A stretch of DNA of 64,000 nucleotides from Methanotorris igneus Kol 5 (GTDB taxonomy: Archaea > AGJL01 > Methanococci > Methanococcales > Methanococcaceae): assembly GCF_000214415.1 (NCBI RefSeq), contig NC_015562.1, forward strand, positions 1,054,001-1,118,000, given 5' to 3'. Shown piece after piece: positions 2,814-62,450 of this stretch (positions are counted from its first letter, which is position 1; the number at the start of each line of letters is the position of its first letter). The notes below the pieces were generated by a model. That model did no database searches. It was not told where the DNA came from and saw nothing but the letters and a program-made list of their open reading frames with translations. The position numbers were made by a program, and so were the translations under genes.

Positions 2814-3331
2814 GTTAAAATCAGACCCATAGGGGGATGGAAATTGTTATCACCTCCTTTTTGTTTTTTGAGTGGTTTGATAACAGTTAAAATCAGACCC
2901 ATAGGGGGATGGAAATTTTACATTTTAAGTTGCACTGTTTAAAATATATCACAGTTAAAATCAGACCCATAGGGGGATGGAAATAACAACTTGCTGAGGA
3001 GTGTGGTGTTTCAACTGTTGCGTTAAAATCAGACCCATAGGGGGATGGAAATTTTTGAAATCATCTATTATAGATGCATTAAGATCTTCAAAATAGTTAA
3101 AATCAGACCCATAGGGGGATGGAAATAATAAGGCAAGTCTTGAATTAAACTCTCAATTAGAAAGTTAAAATCAGACCCTTAGGGGGATGGAAATAGATTC
3201 TGATTTTAAAAAAGGGAAAAAAGCATTCAAAGTTAAAATCAGACCCTTAGGGGGATGGAAATTATTTCTTCTGTATATCTCTTCTTAAATCCTCAATCTC
3301 GTTAAAATCAGACCCTTAGGGGGATGGAAAT

Positions 3332-31475: not shown

Positions 31476-31594
31476 TGGTGGGGGTGCTGGGATTTGAACC
31501 CAGGTCCAGGGATTTCTCCTGCCATCGGGTTTTGGTCCAGTGCCCCATGGGCATCTGGAGTCCCCGATGATAGGCCTGGCTACACCACACCCCC
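31476..31594 (-). tRNA. tRNA-Trp (anticodon CCA) with a 41-nt intron
   Basis: Acceptor stem GGGGGTG (31594-31588) pairs with CACCCCC (31486-31480); discriminator A and an encoded CCA (31478-31476) follow. T arm CTGGG-TTCAAAT-CCCAG. The intron runs 31554-31514 after G37. The junction is a canonical bulge-helix-bulge: CTCC/GGAG central helix of 4 bp, 3-nt bulges AGA and AAA, inner helix TGCC/GGCA. Spliced, the anticodon stem is GGGGA/TCCCT with loop CTCCAGA. The intron lacks C and D boxes. Confidence 0.93.
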
Positions 31595-36340: not shown

Positions 36341-37810
<1,470 letters not shown>

Positions 37811-37966
37811 GAGAAAAAAAGTGGCCGTTACTGGGCACCAAATGGTCGCGGGCTTGCGTCTAATTTTTACGTGCAGTCCATAATCCGTAGGGATTATGGA
37901 CGAAGGACCTGATCAGTGAGGGTCACGCATAAGCCCCCGTGCCTGGTGATATCCAGGTACTCCGCC
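37811..37966 (+). other. 16S-23S spacer without tRNA-Ala
   Basis: The 156-bp spacer holds the 3' strand of the 16S processing stem (37821-37857), a hairpin GTCCATAATCC/GGATTATGGAC (about 37875-37901), and the 5' strand of the 23S stem: 37921-37943 pairs with 40986-41008, and 37952-37966 with 40963-40977, with GGTG/CACC between them as a second bulge-helix-bulge. No tRNA can be folded here. Confidence 0.85.
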
Positions 37967-40962
<2,996 letters not shown>

Positions 40963-41028
40963 GGCGGGGTACCTGGACACCCAAAGGTACGGGGGCTTAT
41001 GCGTGGCCCACTTTTTATTGATTGGTAG

Positions 41029-41149
41029 TGGGTACGGCGGTCATAGCGGGGGGGATACATCCGATCCCATCCCGAACTCGGAAATTAAGCCCCCCAGCGA
41101 TGCCCCGAGTACTGCCTTCTGGTGGGAAAGGGGCGATGCTGCCGGCCCA
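41029..41149 (+). rRNA. rrf: 5S ribosomal RNA
   Basis: 121 nt closed by TGGGTACGGCGG and CTGCCGGCCCA, with the conserved CCATCCCGAACTCGG loop. T-rich stops (CTTTTTATT) lie before and after it, at 41011 and 41150. Last rRNA of the operon. Confidence 0.95.
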
Positions 41150-41223: not shown

Positions 41224-41487
41224 GTGGGTAAGGGGGCTGGCGACTTTCCCCACTTTGTGGGGAGGAAGCTCCGCCCACCCGTTATGTGCAGGTGTTCCCC
41301 GAGAGGGGACGGGCATGCTATAGAAACGACACGGCCTTGGAACAGATGACAATGATGCCTGTAAAGGTTGAGGAGTTCCAAGGAGCCGGTGAAACGAGCA
41401 TGCCCCTGCACGGGTGCAAGGGGGTTTCCCCCGCTTAGCCGAATGTCGCCGAAATTACAGAAGGCGGGCTATAGCCCCCATACCCAC
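41224..41487 (+). ncRNA. rnpB: RNase P RNA
   Basis: P1 is formed by GTGGGTAAGGGGGCT at the 5' end and AGCCCCCATACCCAC at the 3' end. The conserved GGAGGAAGCTCC (P4 5' side, about 41260-41271) and ACAGAAGGCGGGCTAT (P4 3' side and P2, about 41457-41472) are unmistakable. At about 264 nt it is on the short side, as in Methanocaldococcales. It lies 75 bp after the 5S gene. Confidence 0.95.
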
Positions 41488-46592: not shown

Positions 46593-47168
46593 ATGGACAT
46601 TGGATTGATTTTATTTATAATAATTTTGTTTTTATTTCCTTATTTGATTGTTTTAATGATTGTTTTTAATCCTTATGGCATTTTAGATTATTTGTTATAT
46701 AAAAAATACAAAAAAGCAAAGGGAGAATGGCATTACATTACCTCAACGAAGATTGGAATGAATAGGAGTAGATGGATTTTTATATTAATGGTAAATATAA
46801 TTACTTTATTTTTTGGACTTTATATTTTAATAAATATAAATCATCCAGATGACGAAATATTAACATTTTCGCTTATATTTTTGTCTATTGCCATTATTTA
46901 TGACAAACTCAATCCAACCTCTGGGACTGTTGAGATTTATAAAGAAGGAATCGCTATATATATTAAAAGATTCAACATTTTAAAACCATTTTTAAATTAC
47001 TATCTTGTTTTACCTTGGAAATTTTTTAAAGGATACAAAGTAAAATCTAAAAATAAGACAAAATATGTTATTTTAATTCCAAAATCAAAATTGTTTTTTA
47101 ATATTTATTTAAAAGATGATGGAAAAGTTGAAGAAATCATTAAAAATTATTTAAATCCTGTCCAATAA
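46593..47168 (+). CDS. Membrane protein with C-terminal PH-like domain, paralogue 2
   Basis: 191 residues with three TM segments and the same tail plan ([20 protein letters not shown]...[11 protein letters not shown]...[18 protein letters not shown]). It follows paralogue 1 by 18 bp, so the two are an operon and arose by duplication. It overlaps the convergent rdgB gene by 18 bp. Confidence 0.6.
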
Positions 47169-47711
47169 AAACTTCTTAAACTCCTCAAATGCTCTCTTTC
47201 TATGTGAAATTTGGCTTTTTTCTTCTGTTGTCATCTCTGCAAAAGTCCTATCTTCACCTTCTGGAATAAAAATTGAGTCATAAGCAAAACCATAACCCTT
47301 ACTCCTTATTTCTTCTGCAACTTTTCCTTTAACAACTCCAATAAATAATTTAACACCATTCTCATCACAATATCCAATAACTGTCTTAAAATAGGCGTTT
47401 CTATTTTCTTTATTCTCTAAAAGTTTTAAAATACCTTCGTTTCCTATTGTCTCTTGGACATATTTTGAATAAGTTCCAGGGAAGCCGTTCAATGCTTCAA
47501 CAAAAAATCCACTATCTTCAACAATAACGGGCTTTTTTATTTTTTCATAGACATATTTTGCCCCAAATTCTGCAACTTCTTCCAAAGTTCCTTGAAGTTC
47601 TGGATAAGGCATTTTTATCTGCTCAATTTTTATATCTTCTAAATCCTTCAAAATGACATTTGCCTCTTTAACTTTGTTTGGGTTTCCCGTTGCAAAGTAT
47701 ATGATTTTCAT
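47151..47711 (-). CDS. rdgB: XTP/dITP pyrophosphatase (Ham1/RdgB)
   Basis: 186 residues. Removes non-canonical purine nucleotides. [13 protein letters not shown] (substrate loop), [36 protein letters not shown] and [10 protein letters not shown] are all present. Close relative of the M. jannaschii founding member MJ0226. Full length. Confidence 0.95.
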
Positions 47712-47839
47712 TGCATCACCAAATTTTTTGATGGGTTTTATATTTTTATTTTGAATTTTATTTTTATTCTTTTAATTTATAGATTTAGATAAACTAATAA
47801 ATGATGCAAAAATAAACATTAATATTATTGACATTGAAC

Positions 47840-48080
47840 TGTCCCCCTGATTTAACACCCCTTTTCATCCGTGGGCTTTGCCCTGTCGAGGGGCTAACCC
47901 ATCAGGGGGTTTAAAATGTGCAAACCCTTGCTGTATCGTGGTCATCTTCATTGGGAGGTTTCCCTCTCCCACGACGCGCCCGAAGGGTTTGCTTAAAAAT
48001 AGTTGTGCCCTCAATATCGAACCCGCTATCATCGCAACCCAATAGGGATGTGCTCCATGTGGGTCGGTTTTATTGAGGGC
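47840..48080 (-). ncRNA. Three-hairpin H/ACA pseudouridylation guide RNA
   Basis: Read 5'-3' from 48080: hairpin 1 at 48080-48007 (stem GCCCTCAATA/TATTGAGGGC, ACA 48006-48004), hairpin 2 at 47992-47920 (GCAAACCCTT/AAGGGTTTGC, ACA 47919-47917), hairpin 3 at 47909-47843 (CCCCCTGAT/ATCAGGGGG, ACA 47842-47840). Each upper part has the GATGA/GA elements of a kink-turn for L7Ae. Pocket sequences 14 nt from ACA match 23S rRNA: TCGA and AACCGA target U40562; CAGC and GGGCG target U40612; GTTA and GGGTTA target U39982. By alignment in memory these are E. coli U2504, U2554 and U1915. No gene overlaps it credibly. Confidence 0.88.
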
Positions 48081-48095
48081 AATATAATATATAGA

Positions 48096-48112
48096 CATTG
48101 AGATATATATAG
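48096..48112 (-). promoter_or_regulatory. Probable promoter of the H/ACA RNA
   Basis: Minus strand CTATATATATCTC is centred about 25 nt before the first hairpin. Part of this TATA sequence is the end of the MITE that begins at 48108, so that insertion built or rebuilt the promoter. Confidence 0.45.
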
Positions 48113-48811: not shown

Positions 48812-49735
48812 ATGCTCTATGTTGTAGGACACAAAAACCCAGATACTGATAGCATTTGCTCAGCAATTGTCTTGGCACATTTCTTAGATGCATATCCAGC
48901 AAGACAAGGGGACCTCAACCCAGAAACAGAATTTGTATTGAGGAAATTTGGAGTGATGGAACCAGAACTCATTACATCTGCAGAGGGTAAGGAGATTATA
49001 TTGGTTGATCATTCAGAAAAATCCCAAAGTTTAGATGATTTAGAGAAGGGGAAATTAGTGGGAATTGTTGACCACCACAAAATAGGGATTACAACATCAG
49101 AGCCAATTTTATACTACGCGAAACCAGTTGGAAGCACAGCAACAGTTATAGCAGAACTCTACTTCAAAAATGCCATGGATTTAATTGGAGGAAAGAATAA
49201 AGAATTAACCCCAGATTTGGCAGGACTTTTACTTTCTGCGATAATATCAGATACTGTCTTGTTCAAATCACCAACAACAACTGACTTAGACAAAGAAATG
49301 GCAAAAAAATTGGCAGAGATTGCAAATATAGAGGATATTAATGCATTTGGAATGGAAATTTTAAAGGCAAAGTCAGTAGTAGGAAAAATGAAACCAGAAG
49401 AGATAATAACAATGGACTACAAGGACTTTGAGTTCAATGGCAAAAAAGTTGGAATTGGGCAAGTTGAGGTTATTGACGTAAGTGAGGTTGAGGATAAGAA
49501 AGAGGAAATATACAAGTTGTTGGAGGAGAAGTTGAAGAATGAGGGCTATGATTTAATTGTATTCTTGATAACAGACATCATGAAAGAGGGTAGTGAGGCA
49601 TTGGTTGTAGGTAATAAGGAGGTATTTGAGAAGGCATTTAATGTCAAAGTTGAAGGAAATAGCGTATTCTTAGAGGGAGTAATGTCAAGGAAGAAACAAG
49701 TTGTTCCACCATTGGAGAAGGCGTATAATGAATAA
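48812..49735 (+). CDS. ppaC: Manganese-dependent inorganic pyrophosphatase
   Basis: 307 residues, family II PPase with the DHH plan: GHKNPDTDSICSA (metal ligands His, Asp, Asp), ILVDHSEKSQ, the signature VDHHKIG, SAIISDTVLFKSPTTT, and the DHHA2 substrate domain ending with SRKKQVVPPLEKAY. ATG 48812 follows AAAGGTGATAGG. Full length. Confidence 0.95.
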   Translation: MLYVVGHKNPDTDSICSAIVLAHFLDAYPARQGDLNPETEFVLRKFGVMEPELITSAEGKEIILVDHSEKSQSLDDLEKGKLVGIVDHHKIGITTSEPILYYAKPVGSTATVIAELYFKNAMDLIGGKNKELTPDLAGLLLSAIISDTVLFKSPTTTDLDKEMAKKLAEIANIEDINAFGMEILKAKSVVGKMKPEEIITMDYKDFEFNGKKVGIGQVEVIDVSEVEDKKEEIYKLLEEKLKNEGYDLIVFLITDIMKEGSEALVVGNKEVFEKAFNVKVEGNSVFLEGVMSRKKQVVPPLEKAYNE

Positions 49736-52789: not shown

Positions 52790-54150
52790 TGGACATTTAT
52801 GAACATTTGTGAGTAAATATTGAAGAAATTTTTAAATATTTGATAATACCATAATCTTACTAAAAAAACAAACAACGATTACTATGCCCAATAAGACAAA
52901 ACCAAAAGAGACTCAGGAATTATCCTATCAAGTCGTTCTATCTTACAAAGTTAGCCATAACTATCCACTTAAAACGTTCTTAATCGAATGTAAAGATAAG
53001 TTAAACGAATGCATAGACATGATTTGGAATAACATAGAATACACTAAAAAAGATAAACCAAAATTGCCAAAATCAAACGAATTCAAAAGAAACCTAAGAA
53101 ACAAACTCTTAGAAAATTGGAGTTATGCCTCTCACTACATCGATGGGATTATAAAAACCTCCTATTCCATCTTACAAAGTTGGGCTTCGAACTACAAAAG
53201 AGGTTATAGAACTAAAACAAAACCGGTAGTAGAGAGGTTATTCGTTAGAGTTAAAACAACTCTAATAAAATACGACAAAGAAAGAGCGGAGATAAGAATA
53301 ACGATAAAACCAAGAAAAGAGTATTTAACCTTAAACATCAAAAATGAATGGTTCTTCGATAAGGTTAAGAACTTAACAATTGGAGAAATTATTTTAAAGG
53401 AAAATGAAGCGTTTTTAACCTTCAAAGATAATCTAAACTATTCAGACAAAGATATAATCGTTGGAGTAGATAGCAATCTAAAATCCCTCGATTTATTTCA
53501 TCCGATAGAGGGTTGGATAAGGATAGATTTAACCGAATTACACCGACTTAAAGAAGTTTATGATAGGAAAATCGATTTCCTTAAAAAACTGCTCAAAAAA
53601 TGTCCTTTAAGAGTTTTGAGAAAGATAAATAGGTTATTCGAAAGAAGGAGAAATAGGGTTAAGGACTTTTTACACAAACTTACAACACAATTATCTCGAC
53701 TATTTCCGGATGCAATTTTTGTCTTCGAGGATTTGAATAAGAGAAAGATGTATAAAAATAAACACTTCAATAGAAGAATAGATAGAGCGAATTGGAATGG
53801 AATAATCGAAAAAATAAGTTATAAGGCGATTATTATCTTAGTTAATCCTGCCTACACTTCAACGACCTGTCCTATATGCGGGAGTAGAATGGAGTCCCAA
53901 GAAGGGCAGGTCGTTTGCTATAATTGTTCAAACTCTTTTAATCGCCAAGTAGTTGGCTGTTTTAATATTTTTAAACGAGGTTTGAATGTAATCAAAAGGT
54001 TTATGGGTGGCTCTGGGGTTACCACGACAGGGGCAGAGGTCTCTGCTAAGAGACTGATGACGCCCAATCCCAACGTAGTTTATTATGTGGATTTAAATGG
54101 CAAATATCTTAAATGTATATAATTGTCCATATTTGACTACGTTGGGAGAA
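52790..54150 (+). mobile_element. IS200/IS605-type element carrying tnpB only
   Basis: Placed by where the helical-repeat coding frame stops (about 52785) and resumes (about 54155). The right end carries the inverted repeat TCCCAACGTAG (54067-54079) / CTACGTTGGGA (54138-54149), enclosing the tnpB stop codon. There is no tnpA, so it could move only with help from outside. Borders are approximate. Confidence 0.7.
52884..54122 (+). CDS. tnpB: TnpB-family protein with altered RuvC-III motif
   Basis: 412 residues. N-terminal recognition part, then the RuvC motifs: D196 in IVGVDSNLKSL, E282 in IFVFEDLNKRK, and the zinc finger C329-x2-C332...C345-x2-C348. Where the family has DRDxNAAxNI, this protein has NRQVVGCFNI (353-362), so the third catalytic Asp position is Gln. 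The tail after 365 (GGSGVTTTGAEVSAKRLM) overlaps the presumed omega-RNA end. It may be inactive as a nuclease; related archaeal groups carry DRQ here, so a changed site may be a lineage trait. Confidence 0.88.
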   Translation: MPNKTKPKETQELSYQVVLSYKVSHNYPLKTFLIECKDKLNECIDMIWNNIEYTKKDKPKLPKSNEFKRNLRNKLLENWSYASHYIDGIIKTSYSILQSWASNYKRGYRTKTKPVVERLFVRVKTTLIKYDKERAEIRITIKPRKEYLTLNIKNEWFFDKVKNLTIGEIILKENEAFLTFKDNLNYSDKDIIVGVDSNLKSLDLFHPIEGWIRIDLTELHRLKEVYDRKIDFLKKLLKKCPLRVLRKINRLFERRRNRVKDFLHKLTTQLSRLFPDAIFVFEDLNKRKMYKNKHFNRRIDRANWNGIIEKISYKAIIILVNPAYTSTTCPICGSRMESQEGQVVCYNCSNSFNRQVVGCFNIFKRGLNVIKRFMGGSGVTTTGAEVSAKRLMTPNPNVVYYVDLNGKYLKCI

Positions 54151-62194: not shown

Positions 62195-62424
62195 CCCCTA
62201 AGGAAGCTCCGCTTTTTAGAGCGGAGAGGATTTGGTATCGATGGATTTATATACAAGTTATTTCATAAATTATACGGCAAAGTCCAAAGGATTTTGCTAT
62301 TATATTCTTCGAAGGCTGCCTGACCCAGCCTGATGAACATAACCTGCCCAATGACGCCTCGGCGACGAGGATGAGAGGGTGTTCCCCATGGGAACCTCCG
62401 CCCTTTAGGCGGAGAGGAGGTCAG
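62195..62424 (+). mobile_element. Relic ends of IS200/IS605-type elements with a GC-rich folded RNA-like segment
   Basis: A hairpin GCTCCGC/GCGGAG lies at 62202-62222. From 62320 to 62424 a GC-rich segment is closed by CTGACC/GGTCAG and holds three successive perfect hairpins: CCTCG-gcga-CGAGG, GTTCCC/GGGAAC and CTCCGCC/GGCGGAG. The last resembles the right end after the tnpB at 591-624, and AATGACGCC resembles the GATGACGCCC near the end of the second tnpB. I read it as omega-RNA and right-end remains of a lost element; an independent small RNA is possible. Confidence 0.45.
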
Positions 62425-62450
62425 CTAAATAAAATCTTGCATTGATAGTA

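Follow-up and report, generated by a model that had tools for sequence, protein, structure and literature searches.

A three-hairpin H/ACA RNA of Methanococcales predicted to guide pseudouridine formation at three functional sites of 23S rRNA

Can a single short RNA guide pseudouridine formation at three active sites of the ribosome? The question is raised by a segment of the genome of Methanotorris igneus Kol 5, a heat-loving methanogen, in an archaeal chromosome of 1,854,197 bases. We analysed the segment within the window, the 64,000-nucleotide stretch of DNA that carries it. The array found there belongs to the H/ACA guide sRNAs, a class that was already known. From its sequence, it is very probably a three-hairpin guide with its own promoter and one predicted 23S pseudouridine per pocket.

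The locus and its hairpins

The rRNA operon occupies positions 36341–41147 of the window, and some 7 kb further downstream the minus strand carries the sRNA array. The whole gene body, 47836–48086 on the minus strand, is supported by its folding z-score, its blastn homologues, and a match to the HgcG family. The 251-nt region folds with a z-score of −5.06, and none of 200 shuffled sequences was as stable. Both direct reading and a motif scan found the three tandem minus-strand hairpins of the original prediction, each with a perfect basal stem of 9 bp followed directly by ACA. The HP1 motif, 48004–48080, contains a hairpin at 48080–48007, with basal stem GCCCTCAATA/TATTGAGGGC and an ACA box at 48006–48004. 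The HP2 motif, 47917–47992, has its hairpin at 47992–47920, basal stem GCAAACCCTT/AAGGGTTTGC, and ACA box at 47919–47917. In the HP3 motif, 47840–47909, the hairpin is at 47909–47843, the basal stem is CCCCCTGAT/ATCAGGGGG, and the ACA box is at 47842–47840. Across homologues, the box is ACA or AUA.

A kink-turn had been claimed for every hairpin. By sequence, GAUGA/GA elements are indeed present in all three, but that of HP1 is less clean than those of HP2 and HP3, because several mismatches lie above pocket 1 in the Methanotorris genome; the GA stem is regular in HP2 and mismatched in HP1. A TATA-like promoter element, resembling TTTATATA/TATAAATA, lies at 48104–48111 on the minus strand, 31 nt before HP1, and such an element is found 27–37 nt upstream of HP1 in all 29 loci examined. 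The array is located between two protein-coding genes. An XTP/dITP diphosphatase (RdgB/HAM1) gene is downstream of HP3, on the minus strand at 47151–47711 (NF011396, 304 bits), and a Mn-dependent inorganic pyrophosphatase gene, 48812–49735 on the plus strand, is divergent from HP1 (NF003877, 423 bits).

The window contains several other features. An archaeal RNase P RNA (41228–41483) follows the 16S-23S-5S genes directly and shares their strand. CRISPR repeats of the Rfam family CRISPR-DR39 form eight units on the minus strand at 2814–3331, a TnpB-type RNA-guided nuclease gene lies at 52884–54122 (NF040570, 123 bits), and an HgcC family RNA, belonging to an Rfam archaeal family named without a function, is at 62311–62436 (113 bits). 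An Rfam tRNA match on the minus strand at 31479–31594 spans 116 bases for a model of 71 positions, which suggests an intron-containing tRNA; ARAGORN reported no tRNA in the window.

Guide pockets and predicted targets

We defined the pattern of a pocket as the complement of the 3′ guide, the target UN, and the complement of the 5′ guide, in that order. For HP1, the 5′ guide AACCGA (48064–48069) pairs with 23S positions 40564–40569, and the 3′ guide TCGA (48017–48020) pairs with 40558–40561. The resulting pattern, UCGA-UN-UCGGUU, matches the plus-strand segment 40558–40569, in which the target is U40562, the equivalent of E. coli U2504 in the peptidyl transferase centre. The HP2 guides, GGGCG on the 5′ side (47977–47981) and CAGC on the 3′ side (47930–47933), pair with 40614–40618 and 40608–40611, respectively. 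Their pattern, GCUG-UN-CGCCC, places U40612, which is E. coli U2554 of the A-loop, in the plus-strand target segment 40608–40618. In HP3, GGGTTA (5′ guide, 47895–47900) pairs with 39984–39989 and GTTA (3′ guide, 47853–47856) with 39978–39981, so that the pattern UAAC-UN-UAACCC matches 39978–39989 on the plus strand and selects U39982, or E. coli U1915, in helix 69. All six guides are on the minus strand. Exact complementarity to the 23S flanks of U39982, U40612, and U40562 had been claimed, and each bipartite pattern occurs once only on the two strands of the 64 kb window, at that site in the 23S rRNA. E. coli numbers had also been proposed for the three uridines, and alignment to E. coli rrlB bears them out: U2504, U2554, and U1915.

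The 3′ guides had been said to begin exactly 14 nt before ACA. This is correct for TCGA, CAGC, and GTTA in the window, but 5 of 28 homologous loci of HP2 have a spacing of 13 nt. HP1 retains the 14-nt geometry in 29 of 29 loci. The spacing bears on which of two neighbouring uridines HP2 would select. If the A that precedes CAGC were to pair with U2554, the pocket would present U2555 instead. That A is unpaired and constant in most HP2 homologues, it would stand 14 nt before the box in the loci with 13-nt spacing, and the pairing score of HP2 for U2555 is almost equal to that for U2554. However, HP2 of genomes G025 and G034 has a U at the position of this A, paired across the stem (A-U and G-U), while CAGC stays 14 nt from the box. 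Moreover, the U2554 equivalent is the homologous site in eukaryotes, Psi2923 of yeast, guided by snR10. Selection of U2555 is therefore an unlikely reading, and we keep U2554 as the predicted target of HP2. In three fragmentary genomes, G013, G018, and G011 (loci L047, L048, and L049), the HP2 guides are GGGTG and TAGT, which would make G-U pairs with the common form of the target, taken here as the reference.

The machinery for such a guide can be recognised in the genome, with matches to Cbf5 (530.8 bits) and Nop10 (81.9 bits) and a sub-threshold match to Gar1 (24 bits against a cut-off of 29.3). Given the presence of Cbf5 and Nop10 and the established mechanism of H/ACA sRNPs (reviewed in PMC7991803), one pseudouridine is predicted per pocket. 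L7Ae would bind each hairpin at its kink-turn, and Cbf5-Nop10-Gar1 would bind at the basal stem and the ACA box. The two guide arms of each pocket would then capture one stretch of 23S rRNA and present one uridine to Cbf5, which would turn it into pseudouridine: U2504 in HP1, U2554 in HP2, and U1915 in HP3. We infer transcription of the array, RNP assembly, and modification at all three uridines.

Conservation, co-variation and the split array

Homologues of the region were found by blastn in 25 of 41 genomes, and covariance models of the single hairpins extended the search. With model R1, HP1 was found in 34 of the 36 Methanococcales and in none of 261 other archaea. Model R2 also found HP2 in 34 of 36 Methanococcales, together with one weak match elsewhere. 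HP3, searched with model R3, is present in 35 of 36 Methanococcales, the match in G033 being weak, and in 26 other archaea, including Thermococcales-like genomes. The HP1 of G025 was missed by the model and was read adjoining the HP2 of that genome. G017, an incomplete assembly, lacks HP1, HP2, and HP3, and the single array copy of G003 is without HP2. Thus, among the archaea searched, the HP1 and HP2 pockets, for U2504 and U2554, are essentially restricted to Methanococcales.

The original prediction turned on whether homologues keep the stems and the pairing of pocket and target. The stems are kept by compensatory change, and the pairing is kept as well, including by joint changes of guide and target. 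The covariation score of HP3 is 0.593, versus 0.251 for shuffled alignments and 0.07–0.13 for slid structures; 95.7% of its cells are paired, and both sides have changed in 12 of its 17 pairs. HP2 shows at least two standard pair types at basal pairs 2–8 and at pairs 2–5 of the GA stem, and basal pairs 4, 5, and 9 of HP1 alternate between C-G and U-A. The guide segments are nearly invariant in the alignments in which the stems vary.

At the U2504 site, most Methanococcales have the target UCGGUU with the guide AACCGA. The sole target change seen there is in G025 and G034, in which UCGGCU is accompanied by the guide AGCCGA, so that the 5′ guide of HP1 co-varies with its target at E. coli position 2510. 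In G031, the UCGGUU target is kept and the guide is GGCCGA, which pairs by way of G-U pairs. At the U1915 site, the target UAACCC is found with the guide GGGUUA in Methanococcales and in P. abyssi. In Archaeoglobaceae-like genomes and G277, the target is UGACCC and the guide is GGGUCA or GGUCA. We regard this co-variation of guide and target in HP1 and HP3 as the strongest support short of experiment.

It might be asked whether all three pockets are productive. In a second alternative, the H/ACA sRNA is genuine but guides through HP2 and HP3 alone, and HP1 is kept for another role, for example, L7Ae binding, RNA stability, or service as a chaperone at the peptidyl transferase centre. Several mismatches interrupt the upper stem of HP1 in the main group, and the sequence of this stem is nearly invariant rather than co-varying; a cleaner stem is seen only in two divergent genomes, G031 and G034. 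With this mismatched upper stem, HP1 may lie outside the published productive folds. A scan of the conserved upper HP1 for other rRNA complementarity gave matches of only 7–9 nt. Against an idle pocket stand the constant 14-nt geometry of HP1 and the 5′ guide that follows the target change in G025 and G034. We consider it quite improbable that HP1 is unproductive, and a three-pocket guide is the reading that we prefer.

The region could also be read as coding for a protein, with the RNA structure incidental, since an open reading frame of 77 aa (47865–48098, same strand) overlaps the hairpins. But the ORF has no family match, the indels of homologues inside the hairpins are not multiples of three, and the changes in homologues track base pairing rather than codons, which together leave this reading with very little probability. 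Chance inverted repeats with chance complementarity are a negligible explanation: short matches are to be expected because the 23S rRNA is long, but the exact HP1, HP2, and HP3 patterns occurred in only 0, 14, and 2 of 1000 dinucleotide-shuffled rRNA sets, and order-wide recurrence with covariation excludes chance.

The claim that one RNA serves three sites holds in Methanotorris and in most Methanococcaceae. It fails in Methanocaldococcus, in which the hairpins belong to two genes, and in G003, with its missing HP2. The breakpoint in Methanocaldococcus is exactly between HP2 and HP3. Of 11 fetched loci, 10 have HP1-HP2 next to the pyrophosphatase gene, and HP3, located elsewhere, adjoins the diphosphatase gene in 11 of 11, G031 being excluded from both counts. 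In G031, both parts of the array are without either neighbour gene within the fetched flanks. Because Methanotorris has both neighbour genes, it is simpler to suppose that the ancestral array was contiguous and came apart in Methanocaldococcus; fusion is the alternative.

Additional copies of the hairpins were seen in some genomes. G005 has a second array (L044), made of HP1 and HP3 without HP2 and nearly identical to the sole array of G003. G009 contains a second, degenerate copy of HP1 (L192, G009:C2:873800-874400), in which the guide is broken. Methanocaldococcus has a paralogue of HP3, an additional H/ACA hairpin with guides GGCCCAC and GTAGGA, at L207 (G028:C1:985900-986300), L208 (G027), L205 (G034), and L056/L057 (G022, G026). 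No matching target for these guides was found in the rRNA sequences scanned.

Comparison with known guides and enzymes

The Rfam covariance model of HgcG (RF00064) aligns with the array from end to end, scoring 44.4 bits at an E value of 5e-11. As the gathering score is 77 bits, the array is a distant match below the cut-off, without formal RF00064 membership by score. The gathering score is reached in none of the 36 Methanococcales, all of which the model therefore misses, versus 31 of 31 Thermococcales-like genomes. Weak Rfam matches to SCARNA1, sR12, SNORA11, and group-II-D1D4-3, with E values of 0.5–2.4, were taken as chance. A DNA-pattern search of genome contigs with the Pyrococcus gene gave matches in unrelated bacteria only.

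Like the array, HgcG/Pab40/Pf7 of Thermococcales is an H/ACA sRNA with three motifs, and Pab40 guides pseudouridylation in vitro (PMC6138745). Its targets, as given in PMC4652768, are L2588, L1932, and L2016. The third motif has the guides GGGUUA and GUUA and the target L2016, as HP3 does; since L2016 of P. abyssi is E. coli 1915, the HP3 pocket is common with Pyrococcus. The other two targets, in contrast, are unlike the 2504 and 2554 of HP1 and HP2. We rejected identity of HP1 with Pab40.1 in target, because L2588 is E. coli 2496, eight nt from 2504.

Afu-4 of Archaeoglobus fulgidus also has three motifs, of which the third is homologous to Pab40.3 and has a predicted target at L1970; the published targets of Afu4.1 and Afu4.2 are 16S U1167 and 23S U2601 (PMC4652768). 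In Archaeoglobaceae-like genomes, two hairpins are found upstream of HP3. On the question of whether L2601 of Afu4.2 is the HP2 target, no convincing 2554 pairing was found in the two such upstream hairpins that were read and scanned. An H/ACA motif of M. jannaschii targeting L2015 has already been noted in PMC4652768, and a motif beside the ITPase gene in the Methanocaldococcus genome G028 has the HP3 guides. The G028 HP1-HP2 gene (537590–537746) adjoins ppaC; a gene of this type at that place has no mention in the accessible part of PMC4652768. The HP1-HP2 gene of M. jannaschii may have been listed earlier without targets.

Archaeal H/ACA RNAs with two and three hairpins are known (PMC7991803). 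Hvo1/Hvo2 of Haloferax and Haloarcula resembles HP3 in guiding helix 69 pseudouridines, H. marismortui 1956 and 1958, or E. coli 1915 and 1917; unlike the array, it has two motifs, and its other target is 2621, or E. coli 2586 (PMC2584109). The 23S pseudouridines listed for H. marismortui are at the 1915, 1917, and 2586 equivalents (PMC2584109). The predicted U2504 and U2554 sites are absent from that list and from the Pab40 targets published in PMC4652768. A published archaeal guide for 2504 was not found in the literature searched.

The class of guide RNA and the U1915 pocket, in Pyrococcus and M. jannaschii, are already known. What appears to be new is the assignment of two further target sites, U2504 and U2554, the conservation of the hairpins throughout the order together with joint changes of guide and target, and the separation of the array into two genes. 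For the ribosomes of methanogens, the result predicts three pseudouridines to the single base, each in a functional centre. The joint change of guide and rRNA at two sites, with an array broken between modules, makes a clear case of H/ACA array evolution.

The three predicted targets of the array are alike in position to the sites of known enzymes and guides. In bacteria, RluC forms the pseudouridine at 2504 and RluD acts in the 1915 region, both as stand-alone protein enzymes. Yeast snR10, a eukaryotic H/ACA snoRNA, specifies the pseudouridine at the 2554 equivalent. We propose, as the account that we favour with some confidence, that in Methanococcales an RNA guide does at U2504 what the protein RluC does in bacteria, and that a single RNA, through its three pockets, would serve helix 69 as well as the peptidyl transferase centre and the A-loop. 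The array would be modular, having been split between hairpins 2 and 3 in Methanocaldococcus into two guide genes that kept their old neighbours, and two of its pockets would have targets unlike those of their relatives in Thermococcales.
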